In this document: piece by piece, positions 13,173 to 58,730 of the stretch | Layout: each line of letters starts with the position of its first letter | Numbering within the stretch: the stretch's first letter is position 1 | From: Halarchaeum rubridurum | Lineage (GTDB): Archaea; Halobacteriota; Halobacteria; Halobacteriales; Halobacteriaceae | Assembly: GCF_014647115.1 (NCBI RefSeq) | Contig: NZ_BMOO01000001.1 | Coordinates: 372,001 to 436,000, forward strand | Direction: 5' to 3' | DNA: 64,000 nucleotides | Notes under the pieces: generated by a model | Database searches by the model: none | What the model was told of the DNA's origin: nothing | Seen by the model: only the letters and a program-made list of their open reading frames with translations | Program-made: the position numbers and the translations under genes

Positions 13173-14567
13173 CTACTCGTCGGGTTTCGTCAGGACGAGG
13201 ATGTTCTCCTCGACGTCGTCGTAATCGGCGGTCGTCGCGGCCATGTTACGCCACAGTCGAATCTCGGGCGCTTCGAACCCGACCCGGTTCTCGGCGAGTT
13301 CGGCGAGTATCTCCGCCGTCTCGACTTCGACTTGCCAGTACGAACCCGAGTCGCCGACGACGTAGGCCGCCTTGCCGCCGGGAGCGAGCACGTCGTACAC
13401 CTGCTCGAAGTGGTGTTGCATCCCCGCAAAGTACTCGGTGATGACTCGTGGGTAGTACTTCCCGAAGCCGTGTGAGATGTCCTCTTCCTCGAGAATCGTC
13501 TCCATCTCGCTGACGATGGCGTCCACTCGGTCGTTCGCTCGTATGTCGACCTGCTCGCCCTCGTCGTCGGCGACGTAGATGTTCTTCGTGTGCGAACGGA
13601 TGTTCGCCTTCTTGATTCGCTGTAAGTCTTCGTTGTCGTCGGCGGCGTCGAGCCAGATGAGTTCGAGGCGCTGGTTTCGCGTGTAGTCGTGTTCGGCGGG
13701 ATACGGGGGTGACGTGATAACGTAGTCCACTTCGCCGTCGTGTGCGTCCGCGTTCAGCAGTTCGGATTCGTCACGAAGGACGTCCGCGAGTTGACGAGCG
13801 TCCGCGCGGAGTATCTCGGTGTCGCCCGGCTCGATTTCACCCGACTCGACGGCTGCTTGAACACGCTCGAGGTCCGCTTCGATGTCGGCGAGCTTGTTCT
13901 TGAAGAAACGGAACACGTCCGTATCGCCTTCCTGTGTTCGGTCACGGGTCGCTTCGGGCCCGAAGCGGACGTTACCGACGTCCTCGGGGAGAACCGCGAT
14001 CATCGCCAGCTCGAACAAGTCGGTCACGTCGTCGTCCGGCAGCTCCTCGACGTGGTATTTGAGCACCGTCATCTTCTGCAGCGGCTTCTCGGAGAGCCAC
14101 CCCTTCGGCGTCTTCTCCGGTTCGCTGAAGTCGTACGTGCTCAAGTCGACGTCCGTGCCACCCGATTCTCCGAACGAGTCGAGCGTCGTATTACCCTGTG
14201 AGGATATCTCGTCGAAGACCGGTCGAATCGTGCGCAGGAGCTCGGAGCGGCGCTCGCGGAACGCATCGAGGTCGACGTCCCAGTTCGTCTTGCAACGCGC
14301 GCTCAGCACGCTCGCGGGCGAGGTGTCCGTACCGATGCTGTCGATACCGAGTTTCTTCGCGGTGAGCGTGGTCGTACCCGTGCCGTTGAACGGGTCGACG
14401 ACGAGGTCGTCCTCGCCGATACCGAACTCGTCCGCGAGGCCCGTGACGAGACGGTCGCTGTACGCGTAGACGAATCGGTACCAATCGTGGATGTCTACAT
14501 CGTCCAAGCGACCGATGTTCGATGTGTGCTTCAAGTCGGGTGCCCCGTTAAGTTGGTCAGTAGGCAT
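13173..14567 (-). CDS. DNA amino-methyltransferase of a type II restriction-modification system
   Basis: 464 aa. SAM-dependent DNA methylase with motif I VDPFNGTGTT (residues 57-66) and catalytic motif IV TSPPY (285-289, TSPPYPAEHDYTR). The S/T-P-P-Y form indicates N4-cytosine or N6-adenine modification. Motif I precedes motif IV, with about 220 residues between them. The N-terminal HDWYRFVYAY block and the block after TSPPY match a known modification-methylase family, but I cannot name its target sequence. A winged-helix gene and a nuclease gene lie divergently upstream. GC content is lower and codon choice less biased than in the flanking genes, consistent with transfer. Confidence 0.9.
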   Translation of the reverse strand: MPTDQLNGAPDLKHTSNIGRLDDVDIHDWYRFVYAYSDRLVTGLADEFGIGEDDLVVDPFNGTGTTTLTAKKLGIDSIGTDTSPASVLSARCKTNWDVDLDAFRERRSELLRTIRPVFDEISSQGNTTLDSFGESGGTDVDLSTYDFSEPEKTPKGWLSEKPLQKMTVLKYHVEELPDDDVTDLFELAMIAVLPEDVGNVRFGPEATRDRTQEGDTDVFRFFKNKLADIEADLERVQAAVESGEIEPGDTEILRADARQLADVLRDESELLNADAHDGEVDYVITSPPYPAEHDYTRNQRLELIWLDAADDNEDLQRIKKANIRSHTKNIYVADDEGEQVDIRANDRVDAIVSEMETILEEEDISHGFGKYYPRVITEYFAGMQHHFEQVYDVLAPGGKAAYVVGDSGSYWQVEVETAEILAELAENRVGFEAPEIRLWRNMAATTADYDDVEENILVLTKPDE

Positions 14568-14722
14568 CGTTCTCTTTTAACGTTGTGTGATCAGCGAGCG
14601 GATAGTGTCTTCGGTTATACTCGGTTCAAGAGTCGAGAATCTGCGAATCTATTTAGAGTACAAACTCTTGTTTATTCGTGCTACTGCGAGGTGTTTTACA
14701 CGAAGCGTCTGGAGTCAGGGTC
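14568..14722. other. AT-rich intergenic region between methyltransferase and regulator genes
   Basis: 155 bp with markedly higher AT than the surrounding chromosome. Besides the operator-like site it contains a plus-strand TATA-like TATTTAGA at 14649-14656, suited to start transcription near 14678 for the regulator gene, and TTTATT at 14670-14675. No coding sequence or RNA gene is seen. Confidence 0.6.
14611..14627. promoter_or_regulatory. Candidate operator/TATA of the methyltransferase gene
   Basis: On the minus strand GAACCGAGTAT (14627-14617) runs directly into TATAACC, a TATA-like box about 50 bp before the methyltransferase ATG. The same 11 bases recur in the opposite orientation at 15091-15101, in front of the nuclease gene. 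On the plus strand TCGGTT is also repeated at a 10-bp step (14611, 14621). The placement suits binding by the small winged-helix protein encoded between the two sites. This is inference from sequence identity and position. Confidence 0.5.
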
Positions 14723-15073
14723 GTGAGCGACGATCTCGAAGCGGAGGATTTCAGAGAGCAAGCGAAGGTGTTCAAGGCCCTCCAGTCGGAAGTGCGATTG
14801 AAACTACTGAAAGAGGTGAGCGAACGCCAACCGGTTTCGGCACCCGAGCTACACGACGCGTTCGAAGTCACGAAGGAGAGTATCAAGAAGAACCTCAATC
14901 AACTGGAAGAAGCCGGATTGCTCCGGTCATCACGGGAACGAGGACCGGGGAACCGACCGCGGGACGAGTTCGTCCTCGCGTACGGAGAGAGCGGGGTGAT
15001 GGTGCAACTCGACGTCGTCCCCGACGACTACGACTTCTATCTCGGCGAGTCCGACGTGGCGTCACCACTCTGA
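14723..15073 (+). CDS. Winged-helix (ArsR-like) regulator of the restriction-modification island
   Basis: 116 aa. The N-terminal 75 residues form a winged helix: FREQAKVFKALQSEVRLKLL (helix 1), VSAPELHDAF and VTKESIKKNLNQLEEAGLL (recognition region), then a wing RSSRERGPG. The C-terminal 35 residues are acidic and unassigned. GTG 14723 has GGAG eight bases upstream and gives a natural N-terminus (SDDLEAEDF). A GTG at 14678, 25 bp after a TATA-like box, would add 15 residues and could be a leaderless start. Position between M and R genes suggests a control-protein role, though it is not a classic Xre-type C protein. Confidence 0.75.
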   Translation: MSDDLEAEDFREQAKVFKALQSEVRLKLLKEVSERQPVSAPELHDAFEVTKESIKKNLNQLEEAGLLRSSRERGPGNRPRDEFVLAYGESGVMVQLDVVPDDYDFYLGESDVASPL

Positions 15074-15090
15074 CGTTCAGTCGGTGCATA

Positions 15091-15140
15091 GAACCGAGTA
15101 TCTTCGAAGGTTAACCGTAGTCGACTACGAATACATATAA
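15091..15140 (+). promoter_or_regulatory. Promoter/operator region of the endonuclease gene
   Basis: In order: GAACCGAGTAT (15091-15101, inverted copy of the site at the methyltransferase promoter), the palindrome CTTCGAAG (15102-15109), GGTTAACC (15109-15116), and the perfect 14-bp palindrome CGTAGTCGACTACG (15116-15129), which ends a few bases before the TATA box CATATAA (15134-15140). TSS is expected near 15160-15165, giving a short leader before ATG 15188. The stacked palindromes upstream of the TATA box indicate tight control of nuclease expression. Confidence 0.55.
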
Positions 15141-15187
15141 CCTATGCGGTGGTTTTAGCTCTCACTCACGGAAAGCCACAGCCACCG

Positions 15188-15946
15188 ATGGCGAAATACG
15201 AACCGATCATCACGTGGGTGTTCGAACAGCAAGCCGAAGAGTACGGGACGGACGAGGAGATTCCATTCCACAGGGACCACATCGAGCAGGCGATGGAGGC
15301 GTTGGACATCCACGTCGGTAACGTACCGGACATTCCGTACGCGTACCGGAGTCGTCGGCCACTTCCCGACCAGATCGCACAGTATGGGTACACGGCAGTC
15401 GTCATCGACGACAAGCGGGAGGGTGAAGACCCGACGTATCTGTTCACGAAGACGGAGCAGTTGATACCCGTACCCGAGGTCGTGGACGAGACACACCGGA
15501 CGAGCATCGACGCGCTCCCGGACCCCGTCCACGAGTACATCGGAAAAGACGAACAAGGGGTGTTGACACAGGTCCGGTACGCCGGACTGCTCGACGACTT
15601 CACGGGACTCGACACCTACCACCTCCAGTCGCATCTCCGGATGCGCGTCCGTGGGCGTGAGGCCGAACTGGACGACCTGTACGTCGGCGTCGACCCCGAC
15701 GGCGACCACGTCGCCCTCGCCATCGAGGCGAAAGGGGACGGAGAGACCCTCAACAGGAACCAACTGATTCGAAACACCCGGGGTATCGAGGACGAACCGC
15801 GGTATCCCGACTCGGTGCGGACACTCGCCGTGAAACTGGACGAGGAGGGGTACTTCTACCTGTTCGAGTTCGAGGTGTTCCGAGACGGCGACGAGGACAG
15901 AGTGGAGACCGACCGGGTGTGGAAGTACGAGTTCGAGTCCGAGTGA
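15188..15946 (+). CDS. Putative type II restriction endonuclease, PD-(D/E)xK fold
   Basis: 252 aa. No close named relative is recognised, but the core LDDLYVGVDPDGD ... LAIEAKG supplies a D-x(n)-E-x-K nuclease site: E160, D162/D163, E180 and K182, followed by a Gln (Q192) in LNRNQLIRN, as often seen in this fold. The N-terminal part has PYAYRSRRPLPDQI (about 50-63). ATG 15188 is chosen; GTG 15149 would lie inside the expected leader. The gene follows the regulator, on the strand opposite to the methyltransferase, so the three genes read as M, then C and R divergently. Recognition sequence unknown. Confidence 0.75.
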   Translation: MAKYEPIITWVFEQQAEEYGTDEEIPFHRDHIEQAMEALDIHVGNVPDIPYAYRSRRPLPDQIAQYGYTAVVIDDKREGEDPTYLFTKTEQLIPVPEVVDETHRTSIDALPDPVHEYIGKDEQGVLTQVRYAGLLDDFTGLDTYHLQSHLRMRVRGREAELDDLYVGVDPDGDHVALAIEAKGDGETLNRNQLIRNTRGIEDEPRYPDSVRTLAVKLDEEGYFYLFEFEVFRDGDEDRVETDRVWKYEFESE

Positions 15947-54679: not shown

Positions 54680-56347
<1,668 letters not shown>

Positions 56348-56446
56348 AGCCGGTCTGACGACGCCCACTCCCGACCCGACCCCGTTCTCGCATCGCTCGT
56401 CGACCGATTCCGTTCGGTTTCTTCGTACGTTACCGGCCAGTGGCCG

Positions 56447-56734
56447 CTACGTCCGCCACGCGCGCAGCCAGCGGAGGACGGTACGGTCGAGGTCGAACGT
56501 CGCGGCGAGGAAGTACGCGCCGGCACAGAAGAGAACGACGCCGACGGCGAGCGCGAGGACACCCCACGACCACGCGTCGCCGGCGAGGGTCGCGGCGGCG
56601 AACCCGCGGATACTGACGCGGACGAGTGCGATCCCGAGTACGAAATAGCCGACTTTCCACGCGAGGCGTTTCACCTCGGCGCGGGCGGCCCGTCGGGCGA
56701 TTTCCTCGACGTCGTCATCGCGTCGGGAGGCCAT
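56447..56734 (-). CDS. Small membrane protein, unknown function
   Basis: 95 aa. Charged N-terminus MASRRDDDVEEIARRAARAE followed by two helices (KVGYFVLGIALVRVSIRGFA and WSWGVLALAVGVVLFCAGAYFLAA split by a short loop) and a basic tail. No family recognised. ATG 56734 is favoured. It follows lrp on the same strand after 39 bp. Confidence 0.6.
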   Translation of the reverse strand: MASRRDDDVEEIARRAARAEVKRLAWKVGYFVLGIALVRVSIRGFAAATLAGDAWSWGVLALAVGVVLFCAGAYFLAATFDLDRTVLRWLRAWRT

Positions 56735-56773
56735 AGCCGTCGCTACGCGGCGATTGCACAAAAAAGAGGGCGC

Positions 56774-57235
56774 CTACTCCTCGTCGACGTCGAGTTCGAA
56801 CTGCTCGTTCTCGGCGGCGGCGTTGAGGACGACGCTCGTCGAGGACTCCTTGATGTCCTGGTCGCCGAGGAGTTCCTTGATGAGGTAGTTCATGTCGTCG
56901 GTGTCGATGAACTTCCCGATGGCGATGATGTCGTGGTCGCCGGTCACCTCGTAGACGGAGACCATCTGCTTGTGCGCGCGGAGGTGCTCGGCGAGGTCGG
57001 GGAGCGCGGTCCCCTCGACCTTCAACTGGAGGACGGCGGTGACGTCGTAGCCGAGCTTGTCGTAGTCGACGATGGGGGTATACCCCTGGATGACGCCCTC
57101 GTCCTCCAAATCCTTGAGGTGGTTGGAGATCGTCGTCACGGAGACGTCGAGTTCTTCGGCGAGGCTGCGGAGGCTCGCGCGGCCGTCGCCGAGGAGTGCG
57201 TTGATGAGTTTCGCGTCGAGGTTCTCGTAGGTCAT
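56774..57235 (-). CDS. lrp: Lrp/AsnC-family transcriptional regulator (glnA-linked)
   Basis: 153 aa. Winged helix ([40 protein letters not shown]) then the RAM ligand-binding domain ([35 protein letters not shown]). Acidic C-terminal extension. It is divergent from glnA; the same Lrp-glnA arrangement is known in Halobacterium, where Lrp influences glnA and other amino-acid genes. A TTAAAT box 30-35 bp before the ATG suggests leaderless transcription. Confidence 0.92.
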
Positions 57236-57359
57236 AGCCCGACAGACGGGCCGGGGGCATTAGAATTTAACGAACGTCCACTTCCCCAGATACCGAAAAG
57301 ATTTGCGAGGACCGCAACCGCTTTAGTAGTCCGTGCGTTTGCATCGAACGACGAAACCA
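57236..57359. promoter_or_regulatory. Divergent lrp-glnA promoter region
   Basis: 124 bp. Minus-strand TATA-like TTAAAT at 57265-57270 serves lrp; plus-strand TTTAGTA at 57322-57328 serves glnA with a predicted leader of about 9 nt. The DNA between is where Lrp would be expected to bind; no long symmetric site is evident, but CGAACGTCC / ACGAACGG-type half repeats recur near 57271 and 57364. Confidence 0.55.
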
Positions 57360-58730
57360 ATGACGAACGGGAAACCGGTCACTGATGGCGGTCTCAGCGA
57401 GACTGAACAGGAAGTGCTGGACGAGATCGAGGAGAAGAACGTCGACTTCCTCCGACTCCAGTTCACGGACATCCTCGGCACCGTGAAGAACGTCTCCGTG
57501 CCGGCGGAACAGGCCGAGAAGGCCTTCACGGACGGTATCTACTTCGACGGCTCCTCCATCGAGGGGTTCGTCCGTATCCAGGAGTCCGACATGCGTCTCA
57601 AGCCGGACCCCGAGACGTTCGCCATCCTCCCGTGGCGCCAGCGCGAGGAGACGGCGTCCGCGCGCCTCATCTGCGACGTCATCAACACGTCGACGAACGA
57701 GCCCTTCGAGGGCGACCCGCGCCGCGTGCTGAAGAACGTCCTCGAACGCGCCGACGACATGGGCTACACCGTCAACGCCGCGCCCGAGCCCGAGTTCTTC
57801 CTCTTCGAGGAGGACGAGCGCGGTCGCGCGACGACGGAGCTCTCGGACTTCGGCGGCTACTTCGACCTCGCGCCGAAGGACCCGGCCTCCGACGTGCGCC
57901 GTGACATCATCAAGGGACTCGAGGACATGGGCTTCGAGATCGAGGCCTCCCACCACGAGGTCGCGGAGTCCCAACACGAGATCAACTTCGAGTACGACGA
58001 CGCGCTCACCACCGCGGACAACGTGGCCACGTTCCGCACGGTCGTCCGCGCCATCGCCGCGGAGCACGACCTGCACGCGACGTTCATGCCGAAGCCCATC
58101 GCGGAGATCAACGGCTCCGGGATGCACACGCACTTCTCGCTCTTCGAGGACGGCGAGAACGCGTTCCACGACGAGGACGACGAGTTCAACCTCTCCGAGA
58201 CGGCCCACCAGTTCCTCGCGGGCATCCTCGAGCACGCGCCCGCCATCACGGCCGTCTCGAACCCGACCGTGAACTCCTACAAGCGCCTCGTTCCCGGCTA
58301 CGAGGCCCCGGTGTACGTCGCGTGGTCCGACCGGAACCGCTCCGCGCTCATCCGCAAGCCCGCGGCGCGCGTCCCCGCCGCCTCCCGCATCGAGGCGCGC
58401 TTCCCCGACCCGTCCTGTAACCCGTACCTCGCCTTCGCCGCGCTCATCTCCGCGGGTCTCGACGGCATCGAACAGGGCCTCGACGCGCCCGACCCGGTCC
58501 GCGAGAACATCTACGAGTTCGACGCCGAGAAGCGCGAAGAGTACGGCATCGAGACGCTCCCGTCGAACCTCGGCGAGGCCGTCGACGCCCTCGAGGCGGA
58601 CGACACCGTCCTCGACACGCTCGGCGACCACATCTCCGAGAAGTTCATCGAGGCCAAGCGCGAGGAGCACACGGGCTACCGCATCCAGGTCTCCGACTGG
58701 GAGAAGGAGCGCTACCTCGAGAAGTTCTAG
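57360..58730 (+). CDS. glnA: Glutamine synthetase, type I
   Basis: 456 aa. Makes glutamine from glutamate, ammonia and ATP. Key blocks: [45 protein letters not shown] (metal ligands), [15 protein letters not shown] (glutamate binding), the ATP loop [19 protein letters not shown], and [23 protein letters not shown] 57360 gives [11 protein letters not shown]. Divergent from the Lrp gene; the PAP2 gene converges downstream. Confidence 0.95.

Follow-up and report, generated by a model that had tools for sequence, protein, structure and literature searches.

Type II restriction-modification (R-M) systems with a C protein, such as PvuII, Esp1396I and Kpn2I, comprise three genes, in which the nuclease gene is preceded by that of a small DNA-binding regulator and, in some systems, the methylase is divergent; their operators are repeated within the unit. 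We found the same features, the operators as predictions, in a three-gene unit of the haloarchaeon Halarchaeum rubridurum, which lies in the 64-kb stretch of DNA analysed here (the window). However, the regulators of PvuII, Esp1396I and Kpn2I contain an Xre/lambda-cI-like helix-turn-helix, whereas the H. rubridurum regulator is an ArsR/HTH_20 winged helix, and the H. rubridurum nuclease gene, unlike theirs, has its own upstream region of ~114 bp with a site. In the literature searched, which covered few subscription papers, no ArsR-like controller of archaeal R-M was reported. Such a controller bears on how archaea delay a toxic nuclease after a new host has received an R-M system, and archaeal promoters (TBP/TFB) are not controllable in the sigma-70 manner. 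We propose that the locus is a complete Type II R-M unit, in which the winged helix quite probably acts as a dedicated controller similar to a C protein. As a compact unit with predicted operators, it makes the question of nuclease delay testable in Haloferax.

The unit is located between infB and a DUF5811/PAN block and comprises a methylase gene on the minus strand followed by the winged-helix and nuclease genes on the plus strand (Table 1). A preceding sequence-only reading had described three genes of lower GC between infB and a conserved block, among them a methylase with DPFNGTGTT and TSPPY and a divergent 116-aa winged helix. The open reading frames are present as claimed, and the base composition confirms the description, with a GC of 0.53–0.63 in the unit vs 0.68–0.74 in the flanks and a GC3 of 0.71–0.81 for the unit genes compared to 0.94–0.96 for infB and PAN. 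The ancestral gene order is infB, a small membrane gene, DUF5811, an arginine-decarboxylase-like gene and PAN. In two genomes of the same genus without the unit, infB and the small membrane gene are separated by 64 bp (G165) and 82 bp (G170), while about 2.9 kb occupy this slot in H. rubridurum. Since infB abuts the small gene in both relatives, the R-M unit was inserted here as a segment of about 2.9 kb, and horizontal acquisition is part of the best explanation. The infB slot of Haloplanus ruber (L007/G198), a member of another family, also holds the R-M unit. Third codon positions of the H. rubridurum and Haloplanus ruber units are only 28–44% identical, so that the shared slot does not reflect a recent exchange between them. 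In another genome of the genus (G135, L205) a histidine-kinase-like gene occupies the slot, and the infB-adjacent position is possibly an insertion hotspot.

Table 1 Features of the R-M unit and a related locus; positions refer to the window unless a locus is named
Feature	Position	Strand	Remarks
Inserted segment	13081..15978	.	left edge is the infB stop; right edge approximate
DNA amino-methyltransferase, 464 aa, predicted m4C	13173..14567	-	DPFNGTGTT, TSPPY; PADLOC; PMC6712171
Predicted operator O2, ACCGAGTATAACCGAAGACACT on the minus strand	14604..14625	-	IG1; p 0.019 alone
Predicted operator O1, GTCGAGAATCTGCGAATCTATT, divergent to O2	14632..14653	+	IG1
ArsR-like winged helix-turn-helix (HTH_20), 116 aa, GTG start	14723..15073	+	predicted dedicated controller; no cysteines
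Predicted operator O3, ACCGAGTATCTTCGAAGGTTAA	15093..15114	+	95 bp upstream of nuclease ATG
Type II restriction endonuclease, 252 aa	15188..15946	+	winged-helix-like 1-89; PD-(D/E)xK-like ~107-247; E160, D162, E180-A-K182
Stand-alone homologue of the nuclease N-terminal domain	L027:6709-6981	-	also plasmids NZ_CP095007, NZ_CP084470, NZ_CP132295

Among 391 Halobacteria, the methylase is restricted to six genomes, H. rubridurum and five others with 61–82% identity. An intact nuclease is present in the same six, with fragments in two further genomes, and the winged-helix subfamily (E ≤ 1e-8) likewise occurs in these six, solely within the units. The three genes are adjacent and in the same order and orientation in all six carriers, in agreement with the linkage expected from the sequence-only reading, and with linked methylase and endonuclease genes in each of them the gene content is that of a Type II R-M system. 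The winged helix is thus not a general ArsR protein that merely neighbours the enzymes.

The methylase matches PADLOC MTase_II (2e-36) and has an alpha-type motif order, with the FxGxG motif I (~residues 58–66; FNGTG) ahead of the SPPY motif IV (~residues 286–290). Its best characterised relative found was a CP1-type plasmid enzyme of D. radiodurans (24% identity over 90%, E 4e-15). The CP1 plasmid enzyme M.DraR1 is described as an alpha-class m4C methylase for CCGCGG (PMC6712171, PMC10855626). We equate the match on the plasmid with M.DraR1 on the basis of its CP1 position and the description in the paper, the locus tags of the record being newer. Motif order and homology place the H. rubridurum enzyme with the alpha-class m4C methylases, and it probably modifies N4 of cytosine. 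The conserved N-terminus (L/M-K/E-H) opens with TTG in five units and with ATG in the sixth; the real start of the H. rubridurum methylase may lie 11 codons past the ATG, at a TTG at about 14534 (window 14534–14567). Two further m5C methylase loci are found in the H. rubridurum genome on contig 6 (G000:C6:34194-35408 and 56286-57602).

The nuclease matches PADLOC REase_II (8e-33) and has bacterial relatives with 26–34% identity over most of its length, whose neighbours in most phage-like contigs and plasmids are an m5C methylase and often Vsr. The family, which had been called not recognisable from the letters, is thus less unknown than assumed, and its homologues are of the restriction type. 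The mechanical reading frame starts with GTG at 15149; since all six homologues open with MA(G)KY, the ATG at 15188 is probably the start. In a model of the nuclease (pLDDT 85.8, from a profile of 20 nucleases), residues 1–89 resemble winged helices and residues 107–247 resemble PD-(D/E)xK enzymes (EndoMS, Hjc, RecB-like) with Z of about 6–8 and a maximum of 7.9, structural neighbours that are suggestive only of a PD-(D/E)xK fold. E160, D162 and K182 are invariant in the 20 nuclease sequences, and E or Q precedes A-K in nearly all of them. No nuclease family was found in Pfam, NCBIfam or PHROGs, no solved structure matched by sequence profile, and Foldseek with the model returned nothing at E ≤ 0.001. 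Due to the missing Foldseek match and a VIA-align Z <8 no closer nuclease can be named, which is not evidence for a new fold. Close relatives of the methylase or the nuclease were absent from the viral contigs, and those of the nuclease from the phage records. Stand-alone homologues (~90 aa, 39%) of the N-terminal winged-helix-like domain, lacking the catalytic half, occur on haloarchaeal replicons, in one genome (G210) adjoined by an AAA ATPase. Conversely, the C-terminal catalytic half alone (~110–123 aa) is encoded at L025:5817-6149 (minus strand) and in L026, next to a 720-aa helicase-like ORF, and looks like decay or a split of the nuclease.

The regulator carries the winged-helix signature PF12840 (HTH_20; 2.3e-10, 40.7 bits vs a cut-off of 27), and its closest solved structure is an ArsR-family chain (PDB 2p4w, 1.8e-8). 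It falls outside the metal-sensing ArsR/SmtB family, with 38 bits for NF033788 vs a cut-off of 55, and since it contains no cysteine the classical thiolate metal sites of ArsR proteins are absent. Winged-helix families, and no HTH_3/Xre family, were found among its Pfam and NCBIfam matches. By fold the protein does not belong to the C-protein family, yet it may work like one. The AlphaFold model was unusable (pLDDT 51). The suggestion of an ArsR-like, non-Xre controller has gained support from these matches and from footprint-like repeated sites, which we regard as predicted operators.

A conserved block of ~22 bp is present once in the gap between regulator and nuclease genes (IG2) of all six genomes, 91–98 bp upstream of the nuclease ATG. 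It is CGAGTATCTTCAAAG-like in four genomes and reads CGAATGTCTGCTTAG and CGAATAACTATAAAG in G122 and G382, respectively. The best 20-bp match between IG2 and the gap between methylase and regulator genes (IG1) beat all 60 shuffles in four of the six genomes; in G122 and G324 such simple matches did not exceed the shuffles, and with p of about 0.05 repetition of the site is weak alone. A matrix built from the six nuclease-side regions was then run on the methylase/regulator regions, where its best match exceeded the shuffle mean in every IG1 (individual p 0.019, <0.001, <0.001, 0.051, <0.001 and 0.055), and the sum score was 90.5 compared to a maximum of 47.2 in 1000 shuffles (p < 0.001). The IG1 of H. 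rubridurum contains two divergent copies of the predicted site. CGAA replaces CGAG in the predicted site of G122 and G382, and both also have a changed recognition helix, SILYHLN vs SIVNNLN/SIKKNLN in the other carriers. This co-change of helix and site in two sequences is a hint and no proof. Together, co-inheritance in six of six carriers and the repeated upstream sites, to which binding is predicted, make the winged helix a likely dedicated controller.

In the proposed mechanism, the methylase, probably forming m4C, would protect host DNA, while the PD-(D/E)xK-type endonuclease would cut unprotected DNA. The winged helix would bind the ~22-bp sites upstream of the nuclease promoter and, as a divergent pair, between the methylase gene and its own, and would feed back on itself and on the methylase. 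In this way it could set the order and the ratio of methylase and nuclease expression like a C protein. As to the sign, our guess is that the winged helix most likely activates the nuclease, given that the likely promoter elements seem to be preceded, and not covered, by the site. However, the TATA/BRE core-promoter elements could not be located with confidence, and repression has to be taken seriously as an alternative.

It is also conceivable, if clearly less probable than a timing controller, that the unit is a functional Type II R-M system which the winged helix represses as a whole in response to an ion, stress or phage signal, similar to RptR or CapW. ArsR proteins are usually ligand-responsive repressors, and the predicted sites precede all genes of the unit. 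Non-C repressors of R-M do exist, as exemplified by RptR (PMC12255303). However, the lack of cysteines in the H. rubridurum protein speaks against such a ligand response by the classical metal sites, and the nuclease-side site does not obviously cover the start region. We consider it improbable that the repeats represent an element of the core promoter or of a host factor shared by the genes, with the winged helix regulating something else: some predicted sites do contain TATA-like or CGAA (BRE-like) strings, but when up to 3 mismatches are allowed the nuclease-side site is matched just once elsewhere in the 2.8-Mb genome, in which a general promoter element should recur often, and the confinement of the winged-helix subfamily to these units does not fit either. 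A decayed or silent island with an inactive nuclease, as low GC, patchy distribution and the decay fragments of the nuclease family in other haloarchaea might suggest, is very unlikely in view of three intact frames in H. rubridurum and five other genomes and of the invariant E160, D162 and K182.

For the target sequence, 412 palindromic patterns were compared between the six carriers and 11 non-carriers, with motif counts drawn from samples of 80–400 kb per genome. CGATCG showed the largest depletion in carriers, with observed/expected ratios of 0.19, 0.18, 0.03, 0.15, 0.83 and 0.85 compared to 0.51–1.00 in non-carriers, so that four of the six carriers are depleted and two are not. The family-wise permutation p was 0.020 for the mean difference and 0.13 for a t-like statistic. 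Whole-genome counts of CGATCG and AGATCG are influenced by GC and by how abundant GATC is, and serve as background only; a single CGATCG occurs within the window. As the most depleted palindrome, CGATCG is a candidate for the target of the R-M system, to which we would give roughly an even chance. CTCGAG, GGCGCC and TCGCGA seemed avoided in two carriers; they were unremarkable in the comparison of the six carriers with the 11 non-carriers and were rejected as targets. CGATCG is also the target of XorII, whose methylase is of the m5C type and alongside which a vsr homologue is reported. This combination would fit the bacterial operons of the nuclease relatives, a lead that arose after the CGATCG depletion and draws on that depletion and the literature; Vsr-m5C pairs also occur with targets other than CGATCG.

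The Type II R-M system itself is of a known kind, and the novelty lies in the controller and in the methylase partner, which is swapped from m5C to m4C. The nuclease family has m5C methylases as its partners in bacteria and an m4C-type enzyme in H. rubridurum, which represents a case of partner exchange. That archaea evolved their own analogue of the C protein, a winged helix that serves a single family of Type II R-M and falls into at least two groups with co-changed recognition helix and operator, together with an m4C methylase replacing the bacterial m5C partner, is an idea for and against which we see about equal weight. The Vsr/m5C-methylase/REase operons of Paracoccus p12374, the 5.2-kb Klebsiella plasmids and the IMG/VR loci encode the same nuclease family. 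They consist of one operon with an m5C methylase and often Vsr, beside which no such winged helix was seen, whereas the H. rubridurum unit has a divergent amino (m4C-like) methylase and a winged helix. The DraI system of Deinococcus radiodurans (M.DraR1, m4C, CCGCGG) contributes a distant methylase homologue with the same FxGxG...SPPY order and also pairs an m4C enzyme with a nuclease family that is usually served by m5C. Its nuclease R.DraR1 is a GIY-YIG enzyme (Eco29kI-like) unrelated to that of H. rubridurum, and the available part of the description mentions no winged-helix controller. RptR, the repressor of Type I R-M systems in Gammaproteobacteria (PMC12255303), differs from the H. rubridurum regulator by its all-helical, bZIP-like structure, its Type I context and its bacterial hosts, but it, too, is a regulator devoted to R-M that is not a C protein and has conserved sites.
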